From an uncultured Gammaproteobacteria bacterium (GTDB taxonomy: Bacteria; Pseudomonadota; Gammaproteobacteria; Poriferisulfidales; GCA-002705445): a DNA stretch of 43,412 nt. The stretch is taken from the NCBI GenBank assembly GCA_913031205.1, contig CAJWEM010000007.1, forward strand, positions 1-43,412, written 5' to 3'. Below, in pieces: positions 14,463 through 19,726 of the stretch (position 1 is its first letter; each line of letters starts with the position of its first letter). Both the position numbers and the translations under genes were made by a program. The notes under the pieces are model-generated. The model made no database searches. It saw only the letters and a list, made by a program, of their open reading frames with translations, and was not told where the DNA came from.

Positions 14463-16355
14463 TCATTTTATGTTACTAGAGTGATTTAGATCATACAAGT
14501 CATTATTTTTTGTAAATTTTTTTATTTTTTTAATAATTTCTATTTTCGAAATACCACCAAGCTTCAACTGCTCCTCTCTTGTTGCATGTGGGAAGAATTC
14601 ATCTGGGGCACCAATATTAATTACATGAATATTTTCAATCTTTTCATCTATAATTATTTCATTGACTAAACTACCAGCACCACCTTTTACAGTATTATCC
14701 TCTACAGTAACAAGCAAATGATTATTTTTAGCATTTTCAATAATTGTTTTTTTATCTATAGGCTTTATAAACCTCATATCTACTAATGTTGCATTAATTT
14801 CTTCCGCAACACTTTTGCAAATATCTAATACTGACCCAAAACATAATATTGAGATTTTCTCTCCTTCAATTATTTTTCTGGAAATACCAATTTCTAAATT
14901 TTCAAGATTATTGTTTATTTTTACTCCTAGACCCTCTCCTCTTGGATATCTGACAACGGCAGGACCATTATGAAGATAGCCTGTATAAAGCATATTTCTA
15001 CACTCTTGTTCATCGCTTGGCGCCATTATTAAAATGTTTGGAATGCAGCGTAAGTATGACAAATCAAACATTCCACTATGTGTACTTCCGTCAGCTCCTA
15101 CAAAACCGGCTCTATCAACTGCAAAAAGTACGTCGAGACCTTGCAAAGCCACATCATGTATTAATTGATCATAAGCTCTTTGAAGAAAAGTGGAGTATAT
15201 ACAAACTACTGGTTTTTGTCCTTCGCAAGCAAGCCCAGCTGCTAGAGTCACTGCATGTTGTTCAGCAATACCGACATCAATGTATCTCTCAGGAAATTTT
15301 TTAGAAAAATTTACTAAACCAGAACCTTCACGCATTGCAGGAGTGATTGCAAAAATTCTTGGATCCTTATTCGCAATATCGCATATCCAGTCATCAAAAA
15401 TTTTAGTATAGGTTGGTTTTTGATCTTTAGTTTTCTCAACACCTTTACTAGTATCAAAAATCGGGACTGCGTGATATTTTACTGGATCTGACTCTGCGGG
15501 AAGGTAACCCTTACCTTTTTTAGTGATTACATGAAGTAATTTAGGACCTTTAATCTTTTTTAAATTTTTAAGAGTTTTTACTAAATTCTGAGTATTATGT
15601 CCATCTATCGGTCCATAGTAATTAATTCCCATTTCCTCGAAAAGCATTCCAGGAGCTAATAAACCTTTAATATGTTTTTCAGTTTTCGTTAAGAATAAAC
15701 CGCCAGAAGGAGGCACTTTTTTAAATATATTTTTACTTCCTTCTTTAACCGTAGAGTACGCCTTGCTAGAAAGTATTTTTGTTAAATAGTTCGTCATAGC
15801 GCCAACATTTGGCGAAATTGACATTTCATTATCGTTCAAAATAACTAATATATCTTCTTTTATAGATCCCATATGATTTAATGCTTCGAAAGCCATTCCT
15901 GCACTTAGCCCCCCATCACCTATAACTGCTACAATCTTTTTATCTTCATTTTTATATGATGAAGCAATGGCCATCCCAATAGCAGCACTAATAGATGTGC
16001 TGGAGTGACCAACACCAAAAACATCATATTCACTTTCTTCTCTTGAGGGAAAAGGGTGCAGTCCATCTTTTTTTCTAATTGTATGAAGTTCATCTTTTCT
16101 TCCGGTAAGAACTTTATGCCCGTAGCATTGATGCCCAACGTCCCAAATTATCTTATCATCTGGCGTGTTAAAGGAATAATGAAGCGCAACTGTTAGTTCT
16201 ACAGCTCCAAGACTTGCACCAAAATGTCCTCCACACTGAGACACCGTCTCGATTAAATAATGTCTTAATTCATCAGAAACGTCATCCAAGTCGCTCAAAG
16301 ACAATATCCTAAGATCCGATGGATTAATTATTTTATTTATAAATTCGTATTTCAT
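14463..16355 (-). CDS. dxs: 1-deoxy-D-xylulose-5-phosphate synthase
   Basis: A 630-residue thiamine-diphosphate enzyme that joins pyruvate and glyceraldehyde 3-phosphate, the first step of the MEP isoprenoid pathway. Visible marks are IIWDVGHQCYGHKVLTGR, the ThDP/Mg motif GDGGLSAGMAFEALNH followed by ILNDNEMSISPNVG, and in the second domain VDVGIAEQHAVTLAAGLA and FAVDRAGFVGADGSTHSGMFD. Length is normal (E. coli 620). It follows ispA by 15 bases in the conserved xseB-ispA-dxs operon, which couples it to prenyl diphosphate chain synthesis. Confidence 0.98.
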   Translation of the reverse strand: MKYEFINKIINPSDLRILSLSDLDDVSDELRHYLIETVSQCGGHFGASLGAVELTVALHYSFNTPDDKIIWDVGHQCYGHKVLTGRKDELHTIRKKDGLHPFPSREESEYDVFGVGHSSTSISAAIGMAIASSYKNEDKKIVAVIGDGGLSAGMAFEALNHMGSIKEDILVILNDNEMSISPNVGAMTNYLTKILSSKAYSTVKEGSKNIFKKVPPSGGLFLTKTEKHIKGLLAPGMLFEEMGINYYGPIDGHNTQNLVKTLKNLKKIKGPKLLHVITKKGKGYLPAESDPVKYHAVPIFDTSKGVEKTKDQKPTYTKIFDDWICDIANKDPRIFAITPAMREGSGLVNFSKKFPERYIDVGIAEQHAVTLAAGLACEGQKPVVCIYSTFLQRAYDQLIHDVALQGLDVLFAVDRAGFVGADGSTHSGMFDLSYLRCIPNILIMAPSDEQECRNMLYTGYLHNGPAVVRYPRGEGLGVKINNNLENLEIGISRKIIEGEKISILCFGSVLDICKSVAEEINATLVDMRFIKPIDKKTIIENAKNNHLLVTVEDNTVKGGAGSLVNEIIIDEKIENIHVINIGAPDEFFPHATREEQLKLGGISKIEIIKKIKKFTKNNDLYDLNHSSNIK

Positions 16356-16370
16356 TATTTAAATCTTTAT

Positions 16371-17273
16371 TTAGAACTCTCTTTCAAAAATATAGTTTGA
16401 AATCTCTGCAAATATTGTTTTATCAAAATCAATGCTTTTTAACTTCTCATTAAAAAAATCTTTTTGTTCATTAAGTTTTTTTTGTGCCTCATCAACACCA
16501 AGTAATTTAACATAGTTAGGTTGATTTCTAATTTCGTCTTTATTACTAGTTTTTCCCAAAGTTTTAGAAGAACTTGTACAACCTAACAAATCGTCTTTAA
16601 TTTGAAAACATACTCCTAAAGTTAAACCTAATTCAAGTATTTCTTTTGAGTGATTAGGGTAATTCTTATCTAACATGTAAGGTAACATAATACACGGCGC
16701 TATTAAATTACCAGTTTTCAAGGTATAGATTTTTTCTAATTGTTTCAATTCAACATCTTTATTGTTTATAGCAAGGTCCAAATACTGACCCCCAGCTACA
16801 CCGTGAAGCCCAATCGCAGCCGAAAAGAAATTCACCCAGTTAAGTTGGGTCTCATGTGATATTTGGTTATTTTTTTTGTGACTTAATATTTGAAAGGCAA
16901 GAGACTGAAGAGCGTCGCCTGCAAGAACAGCAGAAGATTCATTAAAAGCAATGTGACAAGACGGAGACCCTCTTCTAATATCGTCATCATCCATACAAGG
17001 CAAGTCATCGTGAATTAATGTATAGGTATGGGTTAATTCAATAGCAACTGCAGGTTGATCAAGTAGCTCAGGATCCAAATTTAAAGCGGATCCGGTTGCG
17101 TAAACTAAAAGCGATCTAATATATTTACTTCCATTTAGAGAGGAATATTTCATTGGTTCAATTAAGTTACATGAACCATCACCATAAATATTAAATACAT
17201 CTTCAATTTTTTGTTGAATCCTACTAGTAAATTTTTTTCTAAATTCATTAAATTCTGTTTTATTATTGCTCAT
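16371..17273 (-). CDS. ispA: Farnesyl diphosphate synthase (short-chain polyprenyl synthase)
   Basis: A 300-residue all-helical prenyltransferase that condenses IPP with DMAPP and geranyl diphosphate to farnesyl diphosphate. The first aspartate-rich motif is DDLPCMDDDD (about residues 89-98) followed by RRGSPSCH; the second is FQIKDDLLG. LNGSKYIRSLL supplies the usual GGKRxR-type substrate loop in altered form (GSKYIR). It overlaps xseB by 11 bases and precedes dxs, the standard operon position of ispA. An octaprenyl synthase is unlikely given this context. Confidence 0.96.
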   Translation of the reverse strand: MSNNKTEFNEFRKKFTSRIQQKIEDVFNIYGDGSCNLIEPMKYSSLNGSKYIRSLLVYATGSALNLDPELLDQPAVAIELTHTYTLIHDDLPCMDDDDIRRGSPSCHIAFNESSAVLAGDALQSLAFQILSHKKNNQISHETQLNWVNFFSAAIGLHGVAGGQYLDLAINNKDVELKQLEKIYTLKTGNLIAPCIMLPYMLDKNYPNHSKEILELGLTLGVCFQIKDDLLGCTSSSKTLGKTSNKDEIRNQPNYVKLLGVDEAQKKLNEQKDFFNEKLKSIDFDKTIFAEISNYIFEREF

Positions 17274-17649
17274 ATTTTTTTATTATAGATTTTGCTTTTT
17301 TTAAATAAGATTCTATCTTAGAAATTTTATCAAGCGCACTTAAGTAGTATTCTGTAGCTTTTTCAATACTGATATCTTGATCTTCAATATTTTCCACGAT
17401 CTTTTCAATTTCTTTAAAAGTTTTCTCTATATCTATTTTTTCAGAAACGCTTTTTTTTATCTTTTTATTCTTCTCTATATTTTTTTCTATCTCTATAAGT
17501 TCCTTATCAGCTTCTTCCGAAAGCTTTATGCCTTTTTCAAAAAGATTTATAGACTCTTCAATCGGAGTTTTTGCTGAGTTGAGTTTTACAATTATTTTTT
17601 CTAAATCATCAATAATGTTTTCATAGTTTCTTTTTATTTTTTTTTTCAT
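17263..17649 (-). CDS. xseB: Exonuclease VII small subunit with two tandem XseB units
   Basis: XseB binds the helical arm of XseA in exonuclease VII, which degrades single-stranded DNA. Family members are usually about 60-85 residues and form one helical hairpin; this one is 128. Residues 9-60 match the family (YENIIDDLEKIIVKL, PIEESINLFEKGIKL). Residues 74-125 repeat it at a constant offset of 65 with no gaps: LEKIIVKL aligns with IEKIVENI, and TPIEESINLFEKG with ISIEKATEYYLSA. The second copy has lost the FEKG turn. The protein is extremely rich in K, E and I. It lies 3 bases after fdhD and overlaps ispA. XseA is not in the window. Confidence 0.9.
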   Translation of the reverse strand: MKKKIKRNYENIIDDLEKIIVKLNSAKTPIEESINLFEKGIKLSEEADKELIEIEKNIEKNKKIKKSVSEKIDIEKTFKEIEKIVENIEDQDISIEKATEYYLSALDKISKIESYLKKAKSIIKKYEQ

Positions 17650-17652
17650 AAT

Positions 17653-18477
17653 TTAGTCAAATATTATATTTTTTTTATTATTATATATTAAAAAAGATCT
17701 TTGCTTCGACCTTGCTATCATAGTTATATTTAAATCCTTAGCTAATTCAATACCCATATTTGTCACTCCTGACCTTGATATAATAATAGGAATACCCATA
17801 TGCTTTGCTTTCATAATAATTTCGGAGGTTAATCTTCCTGTCGTGTAAAATATAATCTCTTCTCCAGCCATGTCATTTAACCACATGAATCCAGCGAGTG
17901 TATCCGCGGCGTTATGTCTACCAACATCTTCAACAAACTCCAAAACATTTTTTCTGTCACAAAGAGCACAACCATGAACAGCTCCTGCTTCTTTATAAAT
18001 GTCATTAAATTTTGTAATTTTTGCAAGAAGATCGAATATCTCCGATCTTTTAATTTTTACACTTGGAAGAGTATTATCATAAAGCTTTTCTATTGTACTT
18101 CCAAAAATTGTTCCTTGACCACAACCCGTTGTAACAGTTTTTTTTTCAAGTTTATCCAATATATTTTTTACATTTTTATTTTTGGTTATCACATTAGATA
18201 TACCAATATCCCATTTCACGTCAATACTTAGAATGTTGTCAATCGAATCAATAATCCCTTGATTTCTCAGATAACCTAAAGTGAGCTCCTCTGGTCTAGT
18301 ACCCAATGTCATAAGAGTAATAAGCTCTTCGTTATCAATTTTTATTGTCAGTGGCAATTCACCAGCAACTTTTGAATCTACTTCTTCCCCTAAATGATTG
18401 TGCGTCAATACTTTATTTGTAGGAGATAGACCACTATTTGAAAGAGTTACTTTTGACTTATTATTTTTTTTGTTCAT
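17653..18477 (-). CDS. fdhD: FdhD-family sulfurtransferase / formate dehydrogenase accessory protein
   Basis: FdhD passes sulfur from IscS to the molybdenum-bis-MGD cofactor of formate dehydrogenases. The 274-residue protein shows RPEELTLGYLRNQGII, GAVHGCALCDRK, FVEDVGRHNAADTLAG, and TTGRLTSEIIMKA followed by SRSGVTNMGIELAK, all typical. The usual catalytic CxxC reads CGQG here (Cys119 only), so the second cysteine is missing. I chose the ATG at 18477, with GAG a short distance upstream, over a TTG at 18489 that would add four residues; the choice is not certain. It overlaps the yfjD-like gene by 17 bases. No formate dehydrogenase gene is visible nearby. Confidence 0.93.
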   Translation of the reverse strand: MNKKNNKSKVTLSNSGLSPTNKVLTHNHLGEEVDSKVAGELPLTIKIDNEELITLMTLGTRPEELTLGYLRNQGIIDSIDNILSIDVKWDIGISNVITKNKNVKNILDKLEKKTVTTGCGQGTIFGSTIEKLYDNTLPSVKIKRSEIFDLLAKITKFNDIYKEAGAVHGCALCDRKNVLEFVEDVGRHNAADTLAGFMWLNDMAGEEIIFYTTGRLTSEIIMKAKHMGIPIIISRSGVTNMGIELAKDLNITMIARSKQRSFLIYNNKKNIIFD

Positions 18478-19726
18478 TTTTAATCTCAAGTTGAACTGTT
18501 TTAACGGCGTTATCCATATTTTCGATTATTTTGAAGGTATGTCCTTGTATATTAATTATATCGTTAATTTTTGGCAAATTTTCTAGATGCTCTAATATGA
18601 AGCCATTAATTGTTTTTGCTTCCTTAGCAACAAGCTTTATATTAAAGATTTGATTTATTTCTCTAATGTGGACTCCACCATCAACTAGAAAGATATTTTT
18701 ATTATCTGTTGGGACAATTTCCTCATTATCAGCTGGGTCACTCGTGAAGTCTCCAACTATTTCTTCAAGAATATCCTCTAAAGTGACAAGACCTTGAATC
18801 TCTCCGTATTCATTAACAATGAAACCAATTCGCCTTTTTTCCTTTTGAAAATTTACAAGCTGTCTATATAAAGAGGTCCCGGAAACTATATAGTATGGTT
18901 TTTTTATTAAACTTTTTATTTTTTCTGTGTCGATACTTTTGCTCGCTAACATTGGGGCAATATTTTTTACATGAACTAATCCAAGAAGGTTTTCAATATT
19001 ATCCTCAAATACCGGGATTCTAGTATATGGAGTATTTTTGAAATTATTCACTACTGATCCTATATCCTCACCAAGGTCTATTCCATATATATCACTTCTT
19101 GGTATCATAATATCTTCAACTGTTGCTTTCTCGAGATCTATTATGCTTTCTAGCATTCTTAAATGAGGTTTAGAAAATTTTATAGATGTTTCTCCCAAAA
19201 TAGTTTTTAGTTCTTCAGAGGATAGAGTGCCTTTTGATAAATTTTGTTTTAGGCCAAGAATTTTAATCAAACTATTTGCAATAAGATTTATAATAAAAAC
19301 AAACGGATAAAGTAAAAACAACATTGGTTTATACAATAAAGATGAAGAATAAGCTATCTTTTCAGAATGCATTTCTCCAATAGTCTTTGGTGTTAGCTCG
19401 GCAAAAATAAGAATAAATATTGTCAAAAGACCAGTTGCAATAGCTAGCCCTAAATTACCATATAATCTTAAAGCAACTAAAGTAGTAATCTGTGTTATCA
19501 ATATATTCGTTAAATTATTTCCTAATAAAATTACACCAATAATTTTGTCAGGATTTTCCAAAAGTTTTTTGGCTGCTTTTGCTCCCTTGTTATTCAGTTT
19601 TGCTTGATGTCTCATTTTATATTTGTTTACAGACATAAGAGCAGTTTCCGATCCTGAAAAGAAAGCAGAAAGTAAGAATAAAACTACAAGTATAATAACT
19701 AAAATTTCGGTTGATATGCTGTCCAA
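18461..19726 (-). CDS. yfjD: HlyC/CorC-family (CNNM-type) membrane protein with CBS pair, YfjD-like
   Basis: A 421-residue inner-membrane protein. The N-terminal DUF21 (CNNM) domain has about four membrane segments, including IILVVLFLLSAFFSGSETAL and GLLTIFILIFAELTPKTIGE. A CBS-domain pair follows (DIMIPRSDIYGIDL, PYTRIPVFEDNIENLLGLVHVKN, GFIVNEYGEIQGLVTLEDILEEIVGDF), then a C-terminal CorC_HlyC domain (FLVDGGVHIREINQIFNI). Relatives are implicated in magnesium or cobalt export. The start must be the TTG at 19726, because the frame closes just upstream and the first membrane helix begins at once. Adjacent ypjD is its usual partner in gammaproteobacteria. Confidence 0.92.
   Translation of the reverse strand: MDSISTEILVIILVVLFLLSAFFSGSETALMSVNKYKMRHQAKLNNKGAKAAKKLLENPDKIIGVILLGNNLTNILITQITTLVALRLYGNLGLAIATGLLTIFILIFAELTPKTIGEMHSEKIAYSSSLLYKPMLFLLYPFVFIINLIANSLIKILGLKQNLSKGTLSSEELKTILGETSIKFSKPHLRMLESIIDLEKATVEDIMIPRSDIYGIDLGEDIGSVVNNFKNTPYTRIPVFEDNIENLLGLVHVKNIAPMLASKSIDTEKIKSLIKKPYYIVSGTSLYRQLVNFQKEKRRIGFIVNEYGEIQGLVTLEDILEEIVGDFTSDPADNEEIVPTDNKNIFLVDGGVHIREINQIFNIKLVAKEAKTINGFILEHLENLPKINDIINIQGHTFKIIENMDNAVKTVQLEIKNEQKK

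Follow-up and report, generated by a model that had tools for sequence, protein, structure and literature searches.

Tandem XseB domains form the exonuclease VII small subunit of a gammaproteobacterial family

The exonuclease VII small subunit encoded in the window, a stretch of 43,412 nucleotides from an uncultured Gammaproteobacteria bacterium (contig CAJWEM010000007.1 of assembly GCA_913031205.1), is built of two tandem XseB domains. Its gene, xseB (17263..17649, minus strand), is a single open reading frame with its ATG at 17649 and its stop codon ending at 17263, and encodes a protein of 128 residues that was delineated from the list of open reading frames, profile searches and AlphaFold modeling. 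Domain 1 (residues 9-62; 17464..17625, minus strand) is defined by PF02609, AlphaFold and Foldseek matches to 8txr and 1vp7, and domain 2 (residues 74-127; 17269..17430, minus strand) by PF02609 and by comparison of a copy-2-only model with known XseB chains; the 11-residue linker between them (residues 63-73; 17431..17463, minus strand) corresponds to the gap between predicted helices. That this tandem-duplicated XseB acts in exonuclease VII is a prediction we make with great confidence. The best overall explanation of the data, to which we assign a probability of roughly 0.6, is a functional tandem-duplicated xseB in which each chain provides the XseA arm with two hairpins.

Each half of the protein is recognized on its own by the Pfam model of the family (PF02609, Exonuc_VII_S), for which the gathering score is 24 bits. 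Residues 1-68 alone score 46.3 bits (E 4.4e-12) and residues 67-128 alone score 30.9 bits (E 2.8e-7), while the complete protein reaches 65.7 bits in both PF02609 and TIGR01280, above both cut-offs. The best NCBIfam matches of each half are xseB models; copy 2 alone scores 28.6 bits against TIGR01280, below the cut-off of 35 bits for that model. All 11 copy-2 homologues match PF02609. No further PF02609 match was present in the 908-kb genome, even at E≤10, so that generic helices rich in K, E and I give no such hits here. With a home-made HMM of single XseBs, copy 1 scores 37.0 bits and copy 2 about 28.1-28.2 bits; the remaining ORFs of the window stay at or below about 2 bits. None of 995 residue shuffles of copy 2 reached its 28.1 bits with this model (best, 9.2), nor did any of 1000 heptad-block shuffles (best, 26.8). 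These results support the preliminary description, which saw two covalently linked XseB units in the protein, one of them diverged; the outcome that it had named against itself, a C-terminal half that is a generic coiled coil, did not occur.

The relationship between the two halves is visible in the profiles. In profile-profile comparisons with single XseBs, copy 2 has an E-value of 2.8e-8 and copy 1 one of 5.2e-12, and the two copies match each other with an E-value of 2.1e-6. The best ungapped BLOSUM offset between the halves is 65, exactly the gapless offset reported in the preliminary description. The Smith–Waterman score of the two halves, 44, is reached by 312 of 2000 shuffles, and we rejected their direct alignment as proof of duplication on this ground. 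The resemblance noted earlier thus reflects a real duplication according to the profiles, but its significance comes from these and not from pairwise alignment.

The AlphaFold model of the full protein (pLDDT 87, with 11 homologues in the input) contains helices at residues 9-23, 30-62, 74-88 and 95-127. They form two predicted helix-turn-helix hairpins with turns at residues 24-29 and 89-94, whose elements are equal in length and again lie exactly 65 residues apart. Residues 63-73, the linker, are the lowest-confidence internal block of the model. In a Foldseek search with the full protein, ranks 1-13 among PDB entries were all occupied by XseB chains (8txr, 1vp7), and copy 2 folded alone (pLDDT 89.6) likewise retrieved chains of the same two structures at ranks 1-13. 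No PDB entry other than XseB ranked above the XseB chains in either search; the E-values are weak for such small helical hairpins (0.07 to 0.9) and the probabilities range from 0.85 to 1.00. The antiparallel helical hairpin of the 1vp7 and 8txr small subunits is therefore reproduced in the prediction.

In the GTDB family, all 12 genomes carry the same one-ORF tandem at the same locus; 11 belong to one genus and one to another. These genomes were assembled independently and include single-cell and metagenome assemblies. A frameshift joining two separate genes, which the preliminary description had recognized as a threat to its proposal, is not what we find. The survey of related genomes for the fused form that it suggested gave a clear division: the whole family carries the fusion, and all eight genomes of the two sister families that share its order (G012-G019) carry a single-domain xseB. 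We assign a negligible probability to an assembly or frameshift artefact, or to a generic coiled-coil tail taken for XseB. The K/E/I-rich composition and the non-significant pairwise comparison of the halves would be in keeping with such an error, but it would not yield an identical architecture in 12 independent genomes, nor a copy 2 that exceeds the family cut-off and outscores its own shuffles.

No in-frame tandem was found outside the family among 369 class and 398 phylum genomes (overlapping sets), surveyed at E≤3e-4 and 1e-4, thresholds at which a tandem with the divergence seen in the second genus (G011) might go undetected; there, copy 2 scores 19.8 bits in a genome search, below the Pfam cut-off. 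Seven genomes, six of them from Gammaproteobacteria, contain at least two PF02609 matches but were set aside, because each match falls in an ORF of its own and these ORFs are mostly on different contigs. A scan across 84,980 species genomes, limited to proteins that share the chosen peptide patterns, returned 10 tandem loci, all from the clade of the window, along with 69 loci that have one domain and represent many phyla; every locus from another phylum was single-domain. An apparent second tandem lineage in marine Alphaproteobacteria (L087, L099, L115, L121, L132), hinted at by tblastn spans of 1-105, was rejected because the ORFs there are single-domain and 77-78 residues long. The two-domain architecture is thus fixed in its clade and rare within Pseudomonadota. 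The clade comprises marine genomes, both MAGs and single-cell assemblies, for example AH-287-I11, AG-447-N20, SI036_bin62 and MED781. Three public records of the clade (L076, L077, L083) are labelled 'uncultured Thiothrix sp.', a doubtful name for a family with genomes of about 0.7-1.1 Mb.

On the minus strand with xseB lie fdhD, immediately upstream (17653..18489), ispA, encoding a polyprenyl diphosphate synthase (16371..17273), and dxs (14463..16355), identified from the ORF list and, for dxs, from synteny. The window thereby has the xseB-ispA-dxs order that is usual for XseB without defining it. The ispA gene adjoins xseB in relatives too, and fdhD is the neighbour of xseB in 10 of 10 relatives as well as in G016, a sister-family genome with a single-domain xseB. 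Since the order fdhD-xseB-ispA-dxs is common to the tandem clade and G016, the simplest account is a duplication inside xseB, with the gene remaining where it was. In a tree of the domains, copy 2 of both genera groups in a single clade with support of 100/100; a single duplication ahead of the split between the genera is therefore most likely. As judged from sequence comparison, then, the most likely origin is a tandem, in-frame duplication of a single xseB domain preceding the divergence of the two known genera. The last 11 bp of xseB (17263-17273) are also the first 11 bp of ispA, and nearly all relatives show a similar overlap; this arrangement is consistent with translational coupling.

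Both halves are under purifying selection, with dN/dS between close relatives of 0.14 for copy 1 and 0.18 for copy 2. Copy 2 is slightly more conserved, with a mean identity of 67% versus 62% for copy 1. That a small genome gained and retained coding length in XseB argues against neutral decay. In the second genus (G011, locus L044), the two XseB domains have diverged far (28-34% identity) and copy 1 also lacks the glycine of FExG; fdhD, ispA and dxs are still recognizable as neighbours.

The two copies differ at a motif of helix 2, [FY]-E-x-G, which is conserved in XseB and lies outside the curated definition of the family. In 98 single XseBs, its glutamate is present in 97% and its glycine in 98%. 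Copy 1 keeps the motif throughout the genus of the window; domain 1 of the protein described here retains S33, E38 and G40. In copy 2, the aromatic residue is kept and the glutamate and glycine are lost in all members, with alanine or serine in place of the glycine. The preliminary description, which held that the second copy had lost an FEKG turn, was right about these two residues and wrong about the remainder, as the aromatic position persists and FEKG (residues 37-40) sits in the middle of helix 30-62, outside the turns. Because copy 2 lacks the glutamate and glycine of FExG, its contact may differ. Of the 13 positions conserved in at least 89% of the 98 single XseBs, copy 1 keeps about eight and copy 2 about five. 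The kept sites are partly complementary, with the serine, glutamate and glycine retained in copy 1 and two glutamates and an alanine (the E of FE, the E before the turn and the A of AEQKV) retained in copy 2 and lost from copy 1. This partition is not beyond chance (hypergeometric p about 0.25, calculated by hand), and as a case for subfunctionalization it is only suggestive.

The losses from copy 2 could also mean that only domain 1 works as an XseB and that domain 2, once an XseB domain, now has another partner or serves as a spacer. In all members, copy 2 lacks not only the serine, glutamate and glycine of the helix 2 signature but also the phenylalanine of helix 1, as such a change of role would allow. 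We nevertheless find this reading improbable, as copy 2 retains the signature sites that copy 1 has lost, has the same hairpin geometry and matches copy 1 in its degree of conservation.

The partner subunit, XseA, is encoded once in the genome (PF02601, G000:C3:59492-60436, full-length, 283 bits), and the protein (locus L003) can be aligned from end to end with E. coli XseA (8txr_A). The coiled coil of XseA is the part that binds XseB (PMC5684230). It spans 135-136 residues in both the tandem and the single-domain lineages, and in the XseA of this genome (residues about 268-403) it comprises three repeats of 45 residues each, with P308, P353 and P398 as markers. These repeats are still detectable when the sister families are included. 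In E. coli exonuclease VII, the published ratio is about six XseB per XseA, whereas PDB 8txr comprises four XseA chains and 16 modelled XseB chains. Known XseB attaches to XseA in several copies and is required for nuclease activity.

Three repeats and about six XseB per XseA would amount to two hairpins per 45-residue repeat, and two hairpins per repeat would in turn mean one fused chain per repeat. Each fused chain would probably supply two of the hairpins that decorate the coiled-coil arm. The number of hairpins would then be kept, each would be tied to a neighbour, and the two positions within such a pair could specialize. That about three two-hairpin chains replace six monomers on each XseA arm is, on this reasoning, slightly favoured, and the idea that the fusion changes the subunit stoichiometry and splits the roles of the units is plausible. 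A more specific arrangement, which we put forward only tentatively, is an ordered A-B belt in which each chain covers one 45-residue repeat of XseA with two non-equivalent, specialized hairpins; domain 1 would hold the ancestral contacts of helix 2 (S, E and G), and domain 2 would hold the other set that it retains. Alternatively, the tandem may bridge XseA protomers, with domain 1 on one arm and domain 2 on that of the dimer partner, so as to staple the XseA dimer. The flexible linker and the diverged surfaces of the copies permit bridging, and exonuclease VII is a multi-XseA assembly, as the four XseA chains of 8txr illustrate. We consider it unlikely, however, because the arm itself, with its three-fold repeat, provides adjacent sites within one chain, and XseA shows no alteration that would hint at a new bridge.

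To our knowledge, the need for many small subunits per large subunit in exonuclease VII is not well understood. A natural tandem that is fixed across a family offers a ready-made test, as it leaves half as many free chains and determines which hairpins are neighbours, and the divergence of the two domains makes their roles separable by deletion. The two-domain architecture is a real novelty in a known subunit, conserved across the family; in the part of the literature that was searched, no XseB in tandem or fused form is described.

In most respects, the protein resembles known XseB. Each half is an approximately 55-residue hairpin like those of the E. coli (8txr) and B. pertussis (1vp7) proteins and of the PF02609 and TIGR01280 families, the gene lies in an xseB-ispA-dxs neighbourhood and the partner XseA is present. 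A single domain of about 80 residues is usual for XseB but not defining, and since the family is defined by a domain profile, the presence of two domains is no ground for exclusion. The sister-family genes (G012-G019) are orthologous, that of G016 likewise sitting between fdhD and ispA, and encode one domain with a short tail (about 90 residues in all) where the window xseB has its second domain. Unlike the 80-residue, one-domain XseB of E. coli, the protein described here has 128 residues and two diverged domains, the second of which lacks the glutamate and glycine of FExG.
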